Positions 5,698 through 10,833 of a stretch of 64,000 nt of DNA are shown here, in pieces. Source of the DNA: Kordiimonas sp. (GTDB lineage: Bacteria > Pseudomonadota > Alphaproteobacteria > Sphingomonadales > Emcibacteraceae); NCBI GenBank assembly GCA_002700365.1, contig PADB01000012.1:310001-374000 (forward strand), given 5' to 3'. The position numbers and the translations under genes are program-made. Each line of letters begins with the position of its first letter. Position 1 is the stretch's first letter. The notes under the pieces are model-generated. The model saw only the letters and a program-made list of their open reading frames with translations, searched no databases and was not told the DNA's origin.

Positions 5698-7848
5698 CTA
5701 GAATCTGAGCTGTACACCGGCACCGAAGTCATATTCATCATGCTGCCGGACAAGCAGAGACAGCTTTTTACTGACTTCATAATCCAGCATCAGGGTATGT
5801 TCCTCGTCGGTATTCCAGTCCCAGGCAAAAGACAGCCTGTCAGTTAGCTGTAATTCACTGCCCAGACCAAAGCGCAAGCGACCATCAGTATCAAGCCGCA
5901 ATTCGCTTTCAATCAATAGCGGTAGCAACATGGACAGGCCCACATATCCCACCGTGTGGCGGTCATCATCTTCCTCTTCATATTCCAGACCGGCAAGCAG
6001 TTCGGTGAAGCGGTTATAGAAATATTCCGCGTTGATTTTCCCACTCACGTCGCCATCATAATCACCTTCCCATTCCGCCTCCAGACGGTAGCGGTGATTA
6101 GAGGTCCAGATACGACCGAAATACTGGTTTGTGAGCACGGCCAGATCAGCAAAGCCATACCAGTGATTATCCATGGAAAGCGATTGGGCAGCAAAGCCAT
6201 CATCAATGCTGCTGGTCCCTGCGTAAGAGATAACGCGGCTCATCCCTGATTTCATGTGGTAGAGGTTATGGCAGTGAAAGATCCAGTCCCGCTCTTCATT
6301 GGCATCAAACTCAATGGTGACTTTGCCCATGCTGGCTAGGTCGACGGTGTGTTTTAAGGGGCTGTAATCCCCCTGACCATTCAATACCCTAAAGAAGTGC
6401 CCATGCAGATGCAGGGGGTGGTTCATCATGGTGGTGTTATTAAAGATAAAGCGGACCCGTTCGCCTTTCTTGATTAGGATGCGGTCAGCCTCGCTCATGG
6501 TGCGGCCATTAAATGACCAGACATAACGTTCCATGTCGCCGGTCAGCTTCAGGTGCACTTCCCGTATAGGCAGGGCCTGATCCAGTACTGTGGGCCGAGT
6601 GGCCTTAAGCGGGGCATAATCCGTCAGATGCTCAATGATTTTCTCTTCGGGCTTCTCATTGGACTTATGGGGTGTGCAATGGCCCATGGCGGCATGTTGC
6701 GGCGCGCAGCCATGATCATTTATATGCCCCGCATGCACCCTATATTGCCTATGTTCAGGTGCCATATCATGGTCGTTATGATCATTATGACTGTCATTAG
6801 TGCCATGACTGCTGTGATCCACCAGAAACAGGTTGGGGCGGGGTATATCCGGCGCCATGACCTTTTGGGCCTTTGGCACTCCAATAAAGGCTGATGTATG
6901 GCCGGTGCCATCGGTATTTGTGGCGCGGAGTTCATAATTTCCTGCGTCAGGAATAGTCACTTCAATGTCATAGGTCTCAGCAATGGCGTGCTTAAGACGT
7001 CTGACCTTCACCGGCTGGACATCTATCCCATCTACGGCAACTATAGTCATTGGGCCACCGGCAAATTCAATATTAAAATAGCTGCTGGCAGCGGCATTAA
7101 TCATGCGAATGCGTACGGTTTCGCCGGGCTGTGCCGTGGCCAATTGTGTTTCCATATCACCATTGGCCAGATGGGCATCATATCCCACATCTGACAGGTC
7201 CATGGGGCCCATGCGCGTCAAGCTTCCTTGGAGGCGATTCTTGATGGCGGGCCAGCCATGGGCAATGACCTTGTCCCAGCTTTGCACACTGCCTTTCTTG
7301 CGGGCATACCAGTCACCATCCCGCTTCAGATTGCGCAGGATTTGTTCCGGGTTTTCATTGGTCCAGTCTGACCAGACAAGCATAAGGTCTTGTTGTGTGT
7401 CAGCATGGTGATGATGGTGATGCTCTGAGCGGGGCAACAGGCGGATGGGGCCATAAATGCCGCGTTCTTCCTGTAGGCCTGTATGGCTGTGATACCAGTA
7501 GGTGCCTGTATGTTTGATCTTGAAGCGGAAGGTAAAACTTTCGCCAGGCCCAATAGGGCGGGTATTTAACCAGGGCACACCGTCCTGATCTGGTGGCAAT
7601 AAAATACCATGCCAGTGTACGGAACTTTCCACATTCATATTGTTGTGGAAGGTGACCTCCAATGTATCGCCAAGATAGGCTTCGATCAGGGGCGCGGGAA
7701 CGCTGCCGCCAATGGCCATGGCCCGTACTGGCACACCGGTTTTATTCAGGGTGATATAGTCAATATTAAATTCATAACGTCTCACCTCTGCCGTTGCTGG
7801 TAGGGAGAGTGAAGCGATGCTGATAAGCATCAAAATCATAAGTCGCAT
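5698..7848 (-). CDS. CopA-type multicopper oxidase with C-terminal beta-barrel-like extension
   Basis: 716 residues. After a Sec-type signal peptide (about 1-20, no twin arginine) come three cupredoxin domains with all copper motifs: HWH 78-80, HSH 120-122, HPLHLHGH 477-484 and HCHNLYHMKSGM 525-536. Such enzymes oxidise Cu(I) in the periplasm. A natural run of six histidines is at 143-148, and residues 344-394 form a His/Met/Cys-rich linker. From about 556 the chain has short alternating strands and ends in LRF, resembling the CopB-type outer-membrane beta domain. I infer a CopA-CopB-like fusion. An AGGA ribosome site precedes the ATG. It is last in a set after hisI and a small Cys/His gene. 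Confidence 0.88.
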   Translation of the reverse strand: MRLMILMLISIASLSLPATAEVRRYEFNIDYITLNKTGVPVRAMAIGGSVPAPLIEAYLGDTLEVTFHNNMNVESSVHWHGILLPPDQDGVPWLNTRPIGPGESFTFRFKIKHTGTYWYHSHTGLQEERGIYGPIRLLPRSEHHHHHHADTQQDLMLVWSDWTNENPEQILRNLKRDGDWYARKKGSVQSWDKVIAHGWPAIKNRLQGSLTRMGPMDLSDVGYDAHLANGDMETQLATAQPGETVRIRMINAAASSYFNIEFAGGPMTIVAVDGIDVQPVKVRRLKHAIAETYDIEVTIPDAGNYELRATNTDGTGHTSAFIGVPKAQKVMAPDIPRPNLFLVDHSSHGTNDSHNDHNDHDMAPEHRQYRVHAGHINDHGCAPQHAAMGHCTPHKSNEKPEEKIIEHLTDYAPLKATRPTVLDQALPIREVHLKLTGDMERYVWSFNGRTMSEADRILIKKGERVRFIFNNTTMMNHPLHLHGHFFRVLNGQGDYSPLKHTVDLASMGKVTIEFDANEERDWIFHCHNLYHMKSGMSRVISYAGTSSIDDGFAAQSLSMDNHWYGFADLAVLTNQYFGRIWTSNHRYRLEAEWEGDYDGDVSGKINAEYFYNRFTELLAGLEYEEEDDDRHTVGYVGLSMLLPLLIESELRLDTDGRLRFGLGSELQLTDRLSFAWDWNTDEEHTLMLDYEVSKKLSLLVRQHDEYDFGAGVQLRF

Positions 7849-7892
7849 TTGTCGTCCTGATTACGTGTTCAAAATGGTTTGAAGGCACATAA

Positions 7893-8273
7893 TTAGGTGC
7901 GGGGTGGCGGTGATTGTGGGGTGAAAGAAACAGAATTAGGAATGTTGAACCGGGGAAGGTCATCCCCATGTCGATTAAAATGTGGGGTATGCAGAAAGGC
8001 TAATGGCAGTGTAATGGCACTGACAACAGCACATTGCACGGCGCATGATTTAGTGGCGTTATCAGTTTTTTCTGATGTGGATTGAGATAGGGAAACATCT
8101 GCATGTCCCGCACATTCTTCTATAGTGGAAACAGATAATTCATGTGTTGAAATTTCTGACGTGGTCATGTGTAGGACATGGCAGTTTTGGGAAAACGCAA
8201 TAGTAAGTGGCCCCATTATAATAATCGCGATTATAAGGAGGGGAGTTACGGTATATGTGACTTTCCGCATCAT
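7893..8273 (-). CDS. Small exported or membrane-anchored Cys/His protein, copper-locus type
   Basis: 126 residues, family not recognised. A hydrophobic segment spans about residues 10-27, followed by a polar region with Cys and His pairs (NCH, ECAGH, SCAVQC) and a second short hydrophobic stretch (ITLPLAF). The C-terminus ends in a proline run (PPPR). Small proteins of this general form often sit upstream of copper oxidase genes, which suggests metal binding or sensing outside the cytoplasm. It starts 11 bases after the hisI stop and ends 44 bases before the oxidase start, on the same strand. Confidence 0.6.
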   Translation of the reverse strand: MMRKVTYTVTPLLIIAIIIMGPLTIAFSQNCHVLHMTTSEISTHELSVSTIEECAGHADVSLSQSTSEKTDNATKSCAVQCAVVSAITLPLAFLHTPHFNRHGDDLPRFNIPNSVSFTPQSPPPRT

Positions 8274-8284
8274 TGTTATCCGGC

Positions 8285-8704
8285 CTATTTCTTATACAGC
8301 TCACCCGGGTCGGTCACGACATCTGCAATAATATTGACCCCGTCATTGCCCGCTTCCAGATAAAAACAATTGCGCCGGCCCGTGTGACAGGCCACGCCGT
8401 CCTGGTGGACTTCCAAAAGGATGGTGTCTGCATCGCAGTCATAGCGGAAGGCCTTTAGACTTTGCACCTGACCAGAACTTTCACCTTTGCGCCAGAAGTT
8501 ATTGCGGGATCGTGACCAATAGCAAACCCGTCCTGTGGTCAGGCTTTCGCGGACCGCATCCGCGTTCATCCACGCCATCATTAATACTTCGCCGGTATCA
8601 TGCTGCTGGGCGATAGCCGGGATTAGGCCGCGATCATCAAATTTAAGGGCGTCCACCACATCATTGATGACATTTCCGGGGAGGGGGTACTGAATTTTCG
8701 TCAT
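8285..8704 (-). CDS. hisI: Phosphoribosyl-AMP cyclohydrolase
   Basis: 139 residues, a standalone HisI that opens the adenine ring of phosphoribosyl-AMP in histidine synthesis. The Mg site DCDAD holds D89, D91 and D93; zinc ligands are C90, C106 and C113 in the ACHTGRRNCFY motif. No other his gene is near. Instead it is first in a leftward set with a small Cys/His gene and a copper oxidase, and its start lies opposite zur. HisI is a zinc enzyme, and zinc-responsive placement of hisI genes is known in other bacteria. Confidence 0.95.
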   Translation of the reverse strand: MTKIQYPLPGNVINDVVDALKFDDRGLIPAIAQQHDTGEVLMMAWMNADAVRESLTTGRVCYWSRSRNNFWRKGESSGQVQSLKAFRYDCDADTILLEVHQDGVACHTGRRNCFYLEAGNDGVNIIADVVTDPGELYKK

Positions 8705-8805: not shown

Positions 8806-9294
8806 ATGCCACATCATATTCTGAAAGACCATGACCATAATCAATGTATTTCTTCGGCTTTGCGTTCAGCAGAGGATATTTGCCTTCAACGTGGCATTAA
8901 GCTGACGCAAATTCGCCGTCAGGTGTTGGAGATTATCTGGCAGGGGCATCAACCTTCTACGGCTTATGATATTCTTGATTGCCTCTCTCAACAGCAAAAC
9001 AAGAAAGTGGCCCCACCAACGGTATATAGGGCGTTGGACTTTCTGCTGGATAACGGTTTGATCCACCGGCTGGAATCCATGAATGCCTATATTGGCTGTG
9101 ATGCACCGACCACCCCACACCAAAGTTGTTTTCTCATCTGTTCTCATTGTCGGTCTGTGGCTGAATTGCATGATATGCCCATTTACGCCGCGCTGGCGGA
9201 GGAGGTGCGACAGGAAGGCTTTAAAGCCAAAGGCATCATGATTGAAGTAAAGGGTGTCTGTGCCGATTGCGTTGAACAGGGACAGAGCGCGTGA
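8806..9294 (+). CDS. zur: Zinc-responsive Fur-family repressor Zur
   Basis: 162 residues of the Fur superfamily. The recognition helix APPTVYRALDFL lies at 69-80, and paired structural zinc ligands are C112/C115 and C152/C155. The His-rich N-terminus (HHILKDHDHNQC) and the coupling to znuC and znuB point to zinc rather than iron sensing. When loaded with zinc it should repress uptake genes. Its stop overlaps the znuC start by four bases, so zur, znuC and znuB form one transcript, probably autoregulated by the site upstream. Confidence 0.92.
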   Translation: MPHHILKDHDHNQCISSALRSAEDICLQRGIKLTQIRRQVLEIIWQGHQPSTAYDILDCLSQQQNKKVAPPTVYRALDFLLDNGLIHRLESMNAYIGCDAPTTPHQSCFLICSHCRSVAELHDMPIYAALAEEVRQEGFKAKGIMIEVKGVCADCVEQGQSA

Positions 9295-10052
9295 CCGCTT
9301 TACTCGAGCTGGATCATGTCTGCAAAAAATTCCACGGCAATACTGTGCTGGATAATGTGAGCCTGTCTGTGAGCAAGGGAGAGATTGTGACACTGATTGG
9401 TCCCAATGGTTCCGGAAAAAGTACATTGATGCGCATTGCTCTGGGATTGGAAAAACCGGATCAGGGGCGGGTGCAAAGACAGCCGAAATTGCGGATTGGT
9501 TATATGCCGCAAAAAGTGAACGTAGAAGCCACGATGCCGCTGACAGTCAAACGGTTTCTAGAATTGCGCCCGAAAACGCGGCTGGATGGAATCAAAAGAC
9601 GGCTGGATGAAGTAAGGGGGGGGCATTTACTGGATAAGCCCTTTCGCACCCTGTCTGGTGGAGAAATGCAGCGCGTACTATTAGCCCGCGCCATTTTAGG
9701 GGACCCGGACTTTCTGGTTTTGGATGAGCCTGTTCAGGGTGTCGATATCGTTGGGCAGGAAGAATTATATGAATTAATCGGTAATATTCGTGACCGACAT
9801 CAGTGTGGTGTTTTAATGGTATCCCATGATTTACATCTGGTGATGGCCCAGACCGATCATGTTCTCTGTCTAAATAAACATGTGTGTTGTCACGGCGCGC
9901 CCGATAAAATTATTGAACACCCGGATTATTTATCTTTATTCGGGGCGTCGTCACAGAATATTGCTGTATACAGTCATCATCATGACCATCACCATGATGC
10001 TGCGGGGCAGGTGATTCCCGGAGAGCATACAGAGCATTGCCGCCATGATTGA
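9291..10052 (+). CDS. znuC: Zinc ABC transporter ATP-binding protein ZnuC
   Basis: 253 residues with Walker A GPNGSGKST (37-45), signature LSGGE (121-125) and Walker B FLVLDEP (141-147). A GTG start overlaps the zur stop codon. It should energise zinc import with the ZnuB permease. The C-terminus carries a His-rich tail (HHHDHHHD around 229-236, then further His and Cys), longer than the catalytic fold needs; such tails may buffer or sense zinc in the cytoplasm. Confidence 0.95.
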   Translation: MTALLELDHVCKKFHGNTVLDNVSLSVSKGEIVTLIGPNGSGKSTLMRIALGLEKPDQGRVQRQPKLRIGYMPQKVNVEATMPLTVKRFLELRPKTRLDGIKRRLDEVRGGHLLDKPFRTLSGGEMQRVLLARAILGDPDFLVLDEPVQGVDIVGQEELYELIGNIRDRHQCGVLMVSHDLHLVMAQTDHVLCLNKHVCCHGAPDKIIEHPDYLSLFGASSQNIAVYSHHHDHHHDAAGQVIPGEHTEHCRHD

Positions 10053-10833
10053 GCAATTTATCATATACGCGATTATTGCCGGACTATGTGTTGCTATTCC
10101 TGCGGGGCCGATGGGAACAATCCTTGTCTGGCAGCGGATGGCTTTTTTCGGGGATGCTTTGTCACATACGGCATTGCTGGGGGTCGTGCTGGGTGTGATA
10201 ACGGGGTTAAATATTGATATAACGGTGATCGTTATATGTTTTGTCGTGGCCTCACTACTCGTTTTTTTAGGCCATCGGGATAGTTTATCCACAGATACGG
10301 TTTTGGGCATTTCATCCCATGCCACATTAGCTTTTGGCCTCATTGCATTGTCTGTGACAACTGCAGGACAGACTGACCTCTATGGGTTGCTTTTTGGCGA
10401 TATTTTATCAGTGCAGATTGAAGAACTTTATTGGCTTGCTGGTGGTGGTGTGCTGATGTTGTTGGCCTTGGCGTTGTTATGGAAATCCATATTAATGGTC
10501 ATTATTAACGAGGACTTGGCCCAAGTAGATGGTGTTTATGTGCTTATTGCAAAACTTACGTTTATGGGCCTGATGGCCCTTATTGTAAGTATGGCAATGA
10601 AGGTCGTTGGCGTGATGTTGATAACGGCGTTGTTAATTATCCCTGCGGCAACAGCACGAAGGCTTTCACGATCACCCGAGCAGATGGCCGCTTTCGCCAG
10701 TTTTACAGGAGCCGTTGCAGTTTTATTGGGTATTTCTGCATCTTACCTATGGGACTGGCCTGCGGGTCCAGCCATTGTCGCCATGGCAACGGGGGCATTT
10801 ACAGTCAGTTTACTGATCCCATTAAGGCATTAA
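10045..10833 (+). CDS. znuB: Zinc ABC transporter permease ZnuB
   Basis: 262 residues with roughly eight hydrophobic segments, typical of the ABC-3 metal permease family. The motif RMAFFGDALSHTALLGV near residues 31-47 is characteristic of ZnuB/MntB. The start lies eight bases inside znuC. No periplasmic binding protein gene (znuA) is next to it; the set ends here, and the stop codon overlaps that of the convergent metC. Confidence 0.95.
   Translation: MIEQFIIYAIIAGLCVAIPAGPMGTILVWQRMAFFGDALSHTALLGVVLGVITGLNIDITVIVICFVVASLLVFLGHRDSLSTDTVLGISSHATLAFGLIALSVTTAGQTDLYGLLFGDILSVQIEELYWLAGGGVLMLLALALLWKSILMVIINEDLAQVDGVYVLIAKLTFMGLMALIVSMAMKVVGVMLITALLIIPAATARRLSRSPEQMAAFASFTGAVAVLLGISASYLWDWPAGPAIVAMATGAFTVSLLIPLRH

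Follow-up and report, generated by a model that had tools for sequence, protein, structure and literature searches.

This locus raises the question of whether a copper oxidase and an outer-membrane barrel can be made as one protein and, if so, what such a protein would do. The gene concerned occupies positions 5698 to 7848 (minus strand) of the window, by which we mean the whole 64,000-nucleotide stretch of DNA analyzed, and its product of 716 amino acids continues for 180 residues after M536, the axial ligand of the last copper motif, before ending in LRF. A preliminary description of this DNA, which gave the same extension and the same ending but named no strand, had proposed that a multicopper oxidase is fused here to a barrel-like extension of the outer-membrane CopB type.

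The fused chain and its oxidase half

The open reading frame (ORF) from 7848 to 5698 is a single uninterrupted frame without an internal stop, and its reading as a multicopper oxidase/PcoB(CopB)-like barrel fusion gene is borne out by full-length homologues in genomes and on plasmids, which confirms the proposed fusion as one intact chain. The CopA-type oxidase region covers residues 22 to 542 (6223 to 7785, minus strand): the Pfam models Cu-oxidase_3, Cu-oxidase, and Cu-oxidase_2 match within residues 31 to 540, and Pfam and NCBIfam together place the multicopper oxidase at about residues 24 to 541. The NCBIfam CopA model TIGR01480 scores 376 bits against the 716-residue chain, below its curated cutoff of 478.95. 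The type 1 and type 2/3 copper ligands are complete (H78/H80, H120/H122, H477/H480/H482, H525-C526-H527, H531, and the axial M536) and invariant across alignments of 3 and 19 sequences. As read from the sequence and the alignment, a His-rich insert at about residues 343 to 400 (6649 to 6822, minus strand) sits where other members have a Met/His-rich loop. Six consecutive histidines also occur naturally after the second copper motif (SEHHHHHHADT; residues 143 to 148, positions 7405 to 7422, minus strand), a run that is missing in two relatives aligned with the window oxidase. The source genome contains no Cu-oxidase_3 match besides the fused oxidase and no PF05275 protein.

A probable Sec signal peptide occupies residues 1 to 21 (7786 to 7848, minus strand), as judged by reading the sequence. 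The N-terminus holds no twin-arginine (RR) motif, in agreement with the preliminary description, and neither does any of the 20 fused proteins whose N-terminus could be read (raw counts, kinship ignored). The accompanying remark that this departs from most CopA proteins was only partly right: among 20 stand-alone CopA proteins sampled from the same class, each encoded next to copB, the signals, typed by eye from the N-termini, were mixed, with about 11 of 20 carrying a Tat-like RR and about 9 of 20 appearing to be of Sec type. Likewise, a Sec-type signal is compatible with the suggested Sec/BAM route but is not diagnostic of it. A lack of Tat export would fit such a route, because the C-terminus of the chain must arrive at BAM unfolded.

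The C-terminal barrel, its kin, and its distribution

A short linker of about 20 residues (about residues 543 to 563; 6160 to 6222, minus strand) fills the gap between the last Pfam domain and the first predicted strand. The remainder of the chain, from about residue 564 to residue 716 (5701 to 6159, minus strand), is a predicted PcoB/CopB-like outer-membrane beta-barrel of 12 strands that closes with a candidate C-terminal beta-signal, FGAGVQLRF, whose final residue is Phe (5701 to 5730, minus strand). The last residue is F or Y in all 22 aligned tails, shortly past a conserved G.G motif, as would be expected for a BAM beta-signal.

When the tail was searched against the CopB family, the result depended on the level of comparison. 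As a single sequence, it gives a sub-threshold match to Pfam CopB (PF05275) at residues 579 to 678, the tail alone scoring 18.6 bits (E value, 0.0015) against a gathering cutoff of 27 bits; the tails of 10 of 22 relatives match PF05275 at an E value of 0.1 or better, and 4 of the 22 match OMP_b-brl instead. At the profile level, by contrast, hhalign aligned the profile of 22 tails with a profile of 31 CopB proteins at a probability of 96.2% (E value, 2.4e-9) over 122 columns in order, and all controls remained below 19% (OmpW, 10.7%; the phospholipase A PLA1, 0.3%; column-shuffled or reversed profiles, at most 1.4%). In addition, the window tail by itself matches the CopB protein of genome G457 (E value, 5.8e-5), whose gene overlaps the end of the CopA gene. 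A PDB sequence search with the tail returned no significant match.

Structure prediction with AlphaFold2 for residues 552 to 716, based on three sequences, gave a 12-stranded model (pLDDT, 88; pTM, 0.76); this was the one model of five that converged, the other four having pLDDT values of 58, 39, 28, and 25, and the full chain predicted from three sequences had a pLDDT of 38. Foldseek placed PcoB (PDB entry 7PGE) at the top of the matches to the tail model, with an E value of 9.8e-7. VIA gave PcoB a Z score of 13.4 and other barrels scores of up to 15.2, and because OmpLA, Tsx, KdgM, and NanC rank at or above PcoB, the fold by itself is not specific for PcoB. Several lines of evidence support the barrel, and its kinship with CopB rests more on sequence profiles than on fold. 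In all, the evidence supports the tail as a homologue of the 12-stranded PcoB/CopB barrel. The CopB-type assignment of the preliminary description is thus upheld, as is the barrel-like strand pattern that it had read in the tail, which is kept in full-length homologues; the compact soluble domain that it had named as a contrary outcome was not what the prediction gave. Positions near the acidic PcoB pore residues (D97, E130, E187, and E207; the acidic pairs compared were D97-E207 and E130-E223) vary among fused tails, in an alignment whose register between the two families is uncertain.

Genomes that encode a full-length homologue include G001 from the same family (54% identity), G024 from the same order, two additional assembled genomes, another seven from the class, and one further representative of the phylum. 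Other homologues lie on plasmids of Bacteroidota (Hymenobacter, Spirosoma, Flavobacterium, Mucilaginibacter, Pontibacter, Bernardetia, and Ornithobacterium) and Fusobacteriota (Ilyobacter). At all 22 loci, the last copper motif of the oxidase and the tail share one open frame. The fusion is uncommon in the class, the tail being present in 8 of 385 genomes (own genome counted) and stand-alone CopB in 32 of 142. When 49 oxidase regions were placed in a tree, a single branch with 100/100 support separated 21 fused proteins from 28 CopA proteins, the latter nearly all sampled from one class. This pattern is consistent with one fusion event that may have been followed by spread across phyla, partly via plasmids. 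The records of plasmid homologues that were examined label the proteins as multicopper oxidases, and in such annotation as plain oxidases the membrane half is overlooked. Two of the plasmid copies have features of their own. In the Bernardetia copy (L051, 4000 to 4300, plus strand), the signal peptide is seemingly out of frame with the rest, through either a frameshift or a sequencing error near the N-terminus. The Ilyobacter copy (L045, 1 to 3721) adjoins a two-component system and periplasmic metal sensor proteins, a setting unlike that of the window.

Leader ORF and hairpin upstream of the oxidase

Absent from the preliminary description were a small ORF and an RNA hairpin immediately upstream of the oxidase gene. 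The ORF (7893 to 8273, minus strand) ends 44 nucleotides (nt) before the oxidase on the same strand and encodes 126 amino acids with an N-terminus that looks hydrophobic by eye, the motif CAVQC at residues 77 to 81, and a C-terminal PPPRT. CutF-like leaders have been defined as proteins of <150 amino acids with PP in the last 15 residues and a Cys motif, followed within 1,000 nt by a gene on the same strand (PMC9973294); with its length, its PPPR at residues 122 to 125, its CAVQC motif, and its distance from the oxidase, the window ORF falls within this definition. Similar leader ORFs lie 36 to 45 nt ahead of the oxidase in three relatives, and the spacing from CxxxC to PP is 40 residues in the window leader and 38 to 44 residues (counted from the Cys motif nearest to the prolines) in those relatives. 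Searches of the leader against Pfam and NCBIfam, DUF2946 included, assigned it to no family at a meaningful score.

The hairpin (7856 to 7897, minus strand) spans the leader stop codon: it starts from the final leader codon and its stop, and base-paired within it is most of the ribosome-binding site of the oxidase, a Shine-Dalgarno-like AGGA located 6 nt upstream of the ATG (7855 to 7858, minus strand; mean unpaired probability, 0.27). Its stability corresponds to a z score of -3.7, with 0 of 300 shuffled sequences as stable, and to -2.6 over a longer stretch. Hairpins at two of the related loci have z scores of -5.2 and -4.2, and in one of the two a Shine-Dalgarno-like GGAG is mostly paired; at L035, the fourth leader locus, the hairpin signal is not significant (z score, -0.8). 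Together, the leader and hairpin suggest copper-dependent translational control of the oxidase. In Rhodobacter capsulatus, the hairpin covering the cutO ribosome-binding site is opened when CutF is translated and exported, and this oxidase gene is thereby switched on (PMC9973294).

The surroundings of the leader were read from translations. A hisI-like gene (8285 to 8704, minus strand) precedes the leader on that strand by 11 nt, and the leader and oxidase may therefore share the transcript of the histidine gene; a promoter scan returned fewer sites than were found in shuffled sequence. Divergent from the copper genes are genes for a Zur-like regulator and a zinc ABC transporter (8806 to 10833, plus strand). 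Elsewhere, a Cys-rich ORF of 138 amino acids that ends in SPPDLNILYRSFLI lies 136 nt upstream of a Bacteroidota fused oxidase (L022, 3361 to 3777, plus strand) and is a possible CutF-like leader.

Function, alternatives, and known systems

Most likely, the fused protein acts as a Cu(I) oxidase in the periplasm, tethered to a PcoB-like outer-membrane barrel that forms a putative pore. Sec would export the chain unfolded and BAM would place the C-terminal barrel in the outer membrane; the oxidase would fold and acquire its copper on the periplasmic side, where the barrel would keep it at its inner face. There, the oxidase would convert Cu(I) to the less toxic Cu(II), and the barrel would anchor it at the outer membrane, probably passing copper beside the active site. 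As for control, copper bound to the CxxxC motif of the leader would cause the ribosome to pause at the C-terminal PPPR, so that the hairpin hiding the ribosome-binding site of the oxidase opens. We consider it probable that this account is right as a whole, that is, a CopA/PcoA and a CopB/PcoB protein in a single chain, exported by Sec/BAM as a barrel-held periplasmic Cu(I) oxidase under CutF-like leader control. The preliminary description had offered export or surface positioning as the purpose of such a coupling. The export role is uncertain because PcoB conducts Cu2+ in liposomes and has been proposed as an importer (PMC9210255); surface positioning is unlikely, given that the PcoB barrel is one of 12 strands whose termini both face the periplasm (PMC9210255).

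Among the alternatives, the barrel could be an anchor only, which fastens the oxidase to the outer membrane but lets no copper through. The tail lacks the long N-terminal extension of CopB and follows a linker of only about 20 residues, and fused proteins do not always carry an acidic residue at the positions that align near the PcoB pore residues, as an anchor would allow; yet acidic residues are still frequent in the tail strands, and a barrel related to a Cu2+-conducting, 12-stranded one (PMC9210255) would be elaborate for that purpose, so that we regard an anchor without transport as rather unlikely. Greater doubt attaches to display of the oxidase on the cell surface by its own barrel. 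A classical autotransporter has its passenger at the N-terminus and a 12-stranded barrel at the C-terminus. The order of parts and the number of strands are the same here, the barrels of EstA, NalP, and AaaA are among the structural matches found with VIA, and a 20-residue linker could span the pore. Such structural similarity is generic, however, and Pfam matched no autotransporter family in the 22 tails; the sequence kin is CopB, whose barrel termini face the periplasm (PMC9210255), and a large cupredoxin protein would need to cross the barrel. Display is therefore improbable and has less support than periplasmic tethering.

It is more doubtful still, and in our judgment very improbable, that an oxidase became joined here to a generic outer-membrane barrel with no kinship to CopB. 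The OMP_b-brl matches in 4 of 22 tails and the similar VIA scores of several barrels point that way, but the CopB profile match far exceeds that of the control barrels, the tail directly matches a CopB that adjoins CopA (G457), and the protein fused to the tail is the same one found alongside CopB. A joint gene produced by a frameshift, an assembly error, or a miscalled stop, which the preliminary description had named as grounds for abandoning the fusion, has a negligible probability: the same oxidase-barrel junction recurs in one open frame at 22 loci, which come from several phyla and represent independent genomes and plasmids. We rejected artificial joining on the basis of these full-length homologues across phyla and of the grouping of fused oxidases apart from the 28 stand-alone CopA proteins.

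Tethering of a periplasmic oxidase to a PcoB-like barrel would have consequences beyond this locus. The role of PcoB/CopB alongside PcoA/CopA and the direction of copper movement are unsettled (PMC9210255), and a natural fusion would imply that oxidase and barrel function together at the outer membrane as one 1:1 unit, the oxidase being fixed at the barrel. The fused gene offers a single gene for testing oxidation and transport together, and the proposed CutF translational switch now stands upstream of a new type of target. As a broader proposal, which we advance tentatively, the fused proteins may form a distinct, widespread family of one-chain copper oxidase-channels that couple oxidation to passage across the outer membrane, use Sec/BAM rather than Tat, and in some genomes of the class are governed by a copper-sensing nascent leader.

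The architecture has been remarked on once before, and both elements of the locus have precedents: the pair that is fused here is known, and so is this kind of leader. A literature search for a named CopA-CopB fusion found none, nor any dedicated study, although subscription journals may differ. In the multicopper oxidase G2EDV6 of Bizionia argentinensis (Bacteroidota), three cupredoxin domains are followed, as in the fused protein, by a porin-like C-terminal region (residues 611 to 809) that its authors found to be PcoB-like (2024; PMC11213822); in the available portion of that article, the architecture is given one sentence, without study, and a leader ORF is not described. The oxidase half has the same region and all copper ligands of PcoA/CopA (TIGR01480), which is a separate protein, often Tat-exported and without a barrel, whereas the fused protein scores below that family's cutoff. 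The tail shares a 12-stranded barrel and a C-terminal aromatic residue with PcoB/CopB (PF05275; 7PGE), a separate protein with an N-terminal extension, in contrast to the shorter fused barrel that falls below the Pfam cutoff. For the leader, the closest known systems are CutF, CruR, and CopL. CruR is a related leader that shares features with that of the window (PMC9426467). In the CutF-CutO system (PMC9973294), as here, a small CxxxC protein with a C-terminal proline motif (exported in the case of CutF, and with an apparently hydrophobic N-terminus in the window leader) directly precedes a multicopper oxidase, with a hairpin at the ribosome-binding site of the latter. CutO, unlike the fused oxidase, is Tat-exported and has no barrel, and the window leader, for its part, matches no Pfam family.
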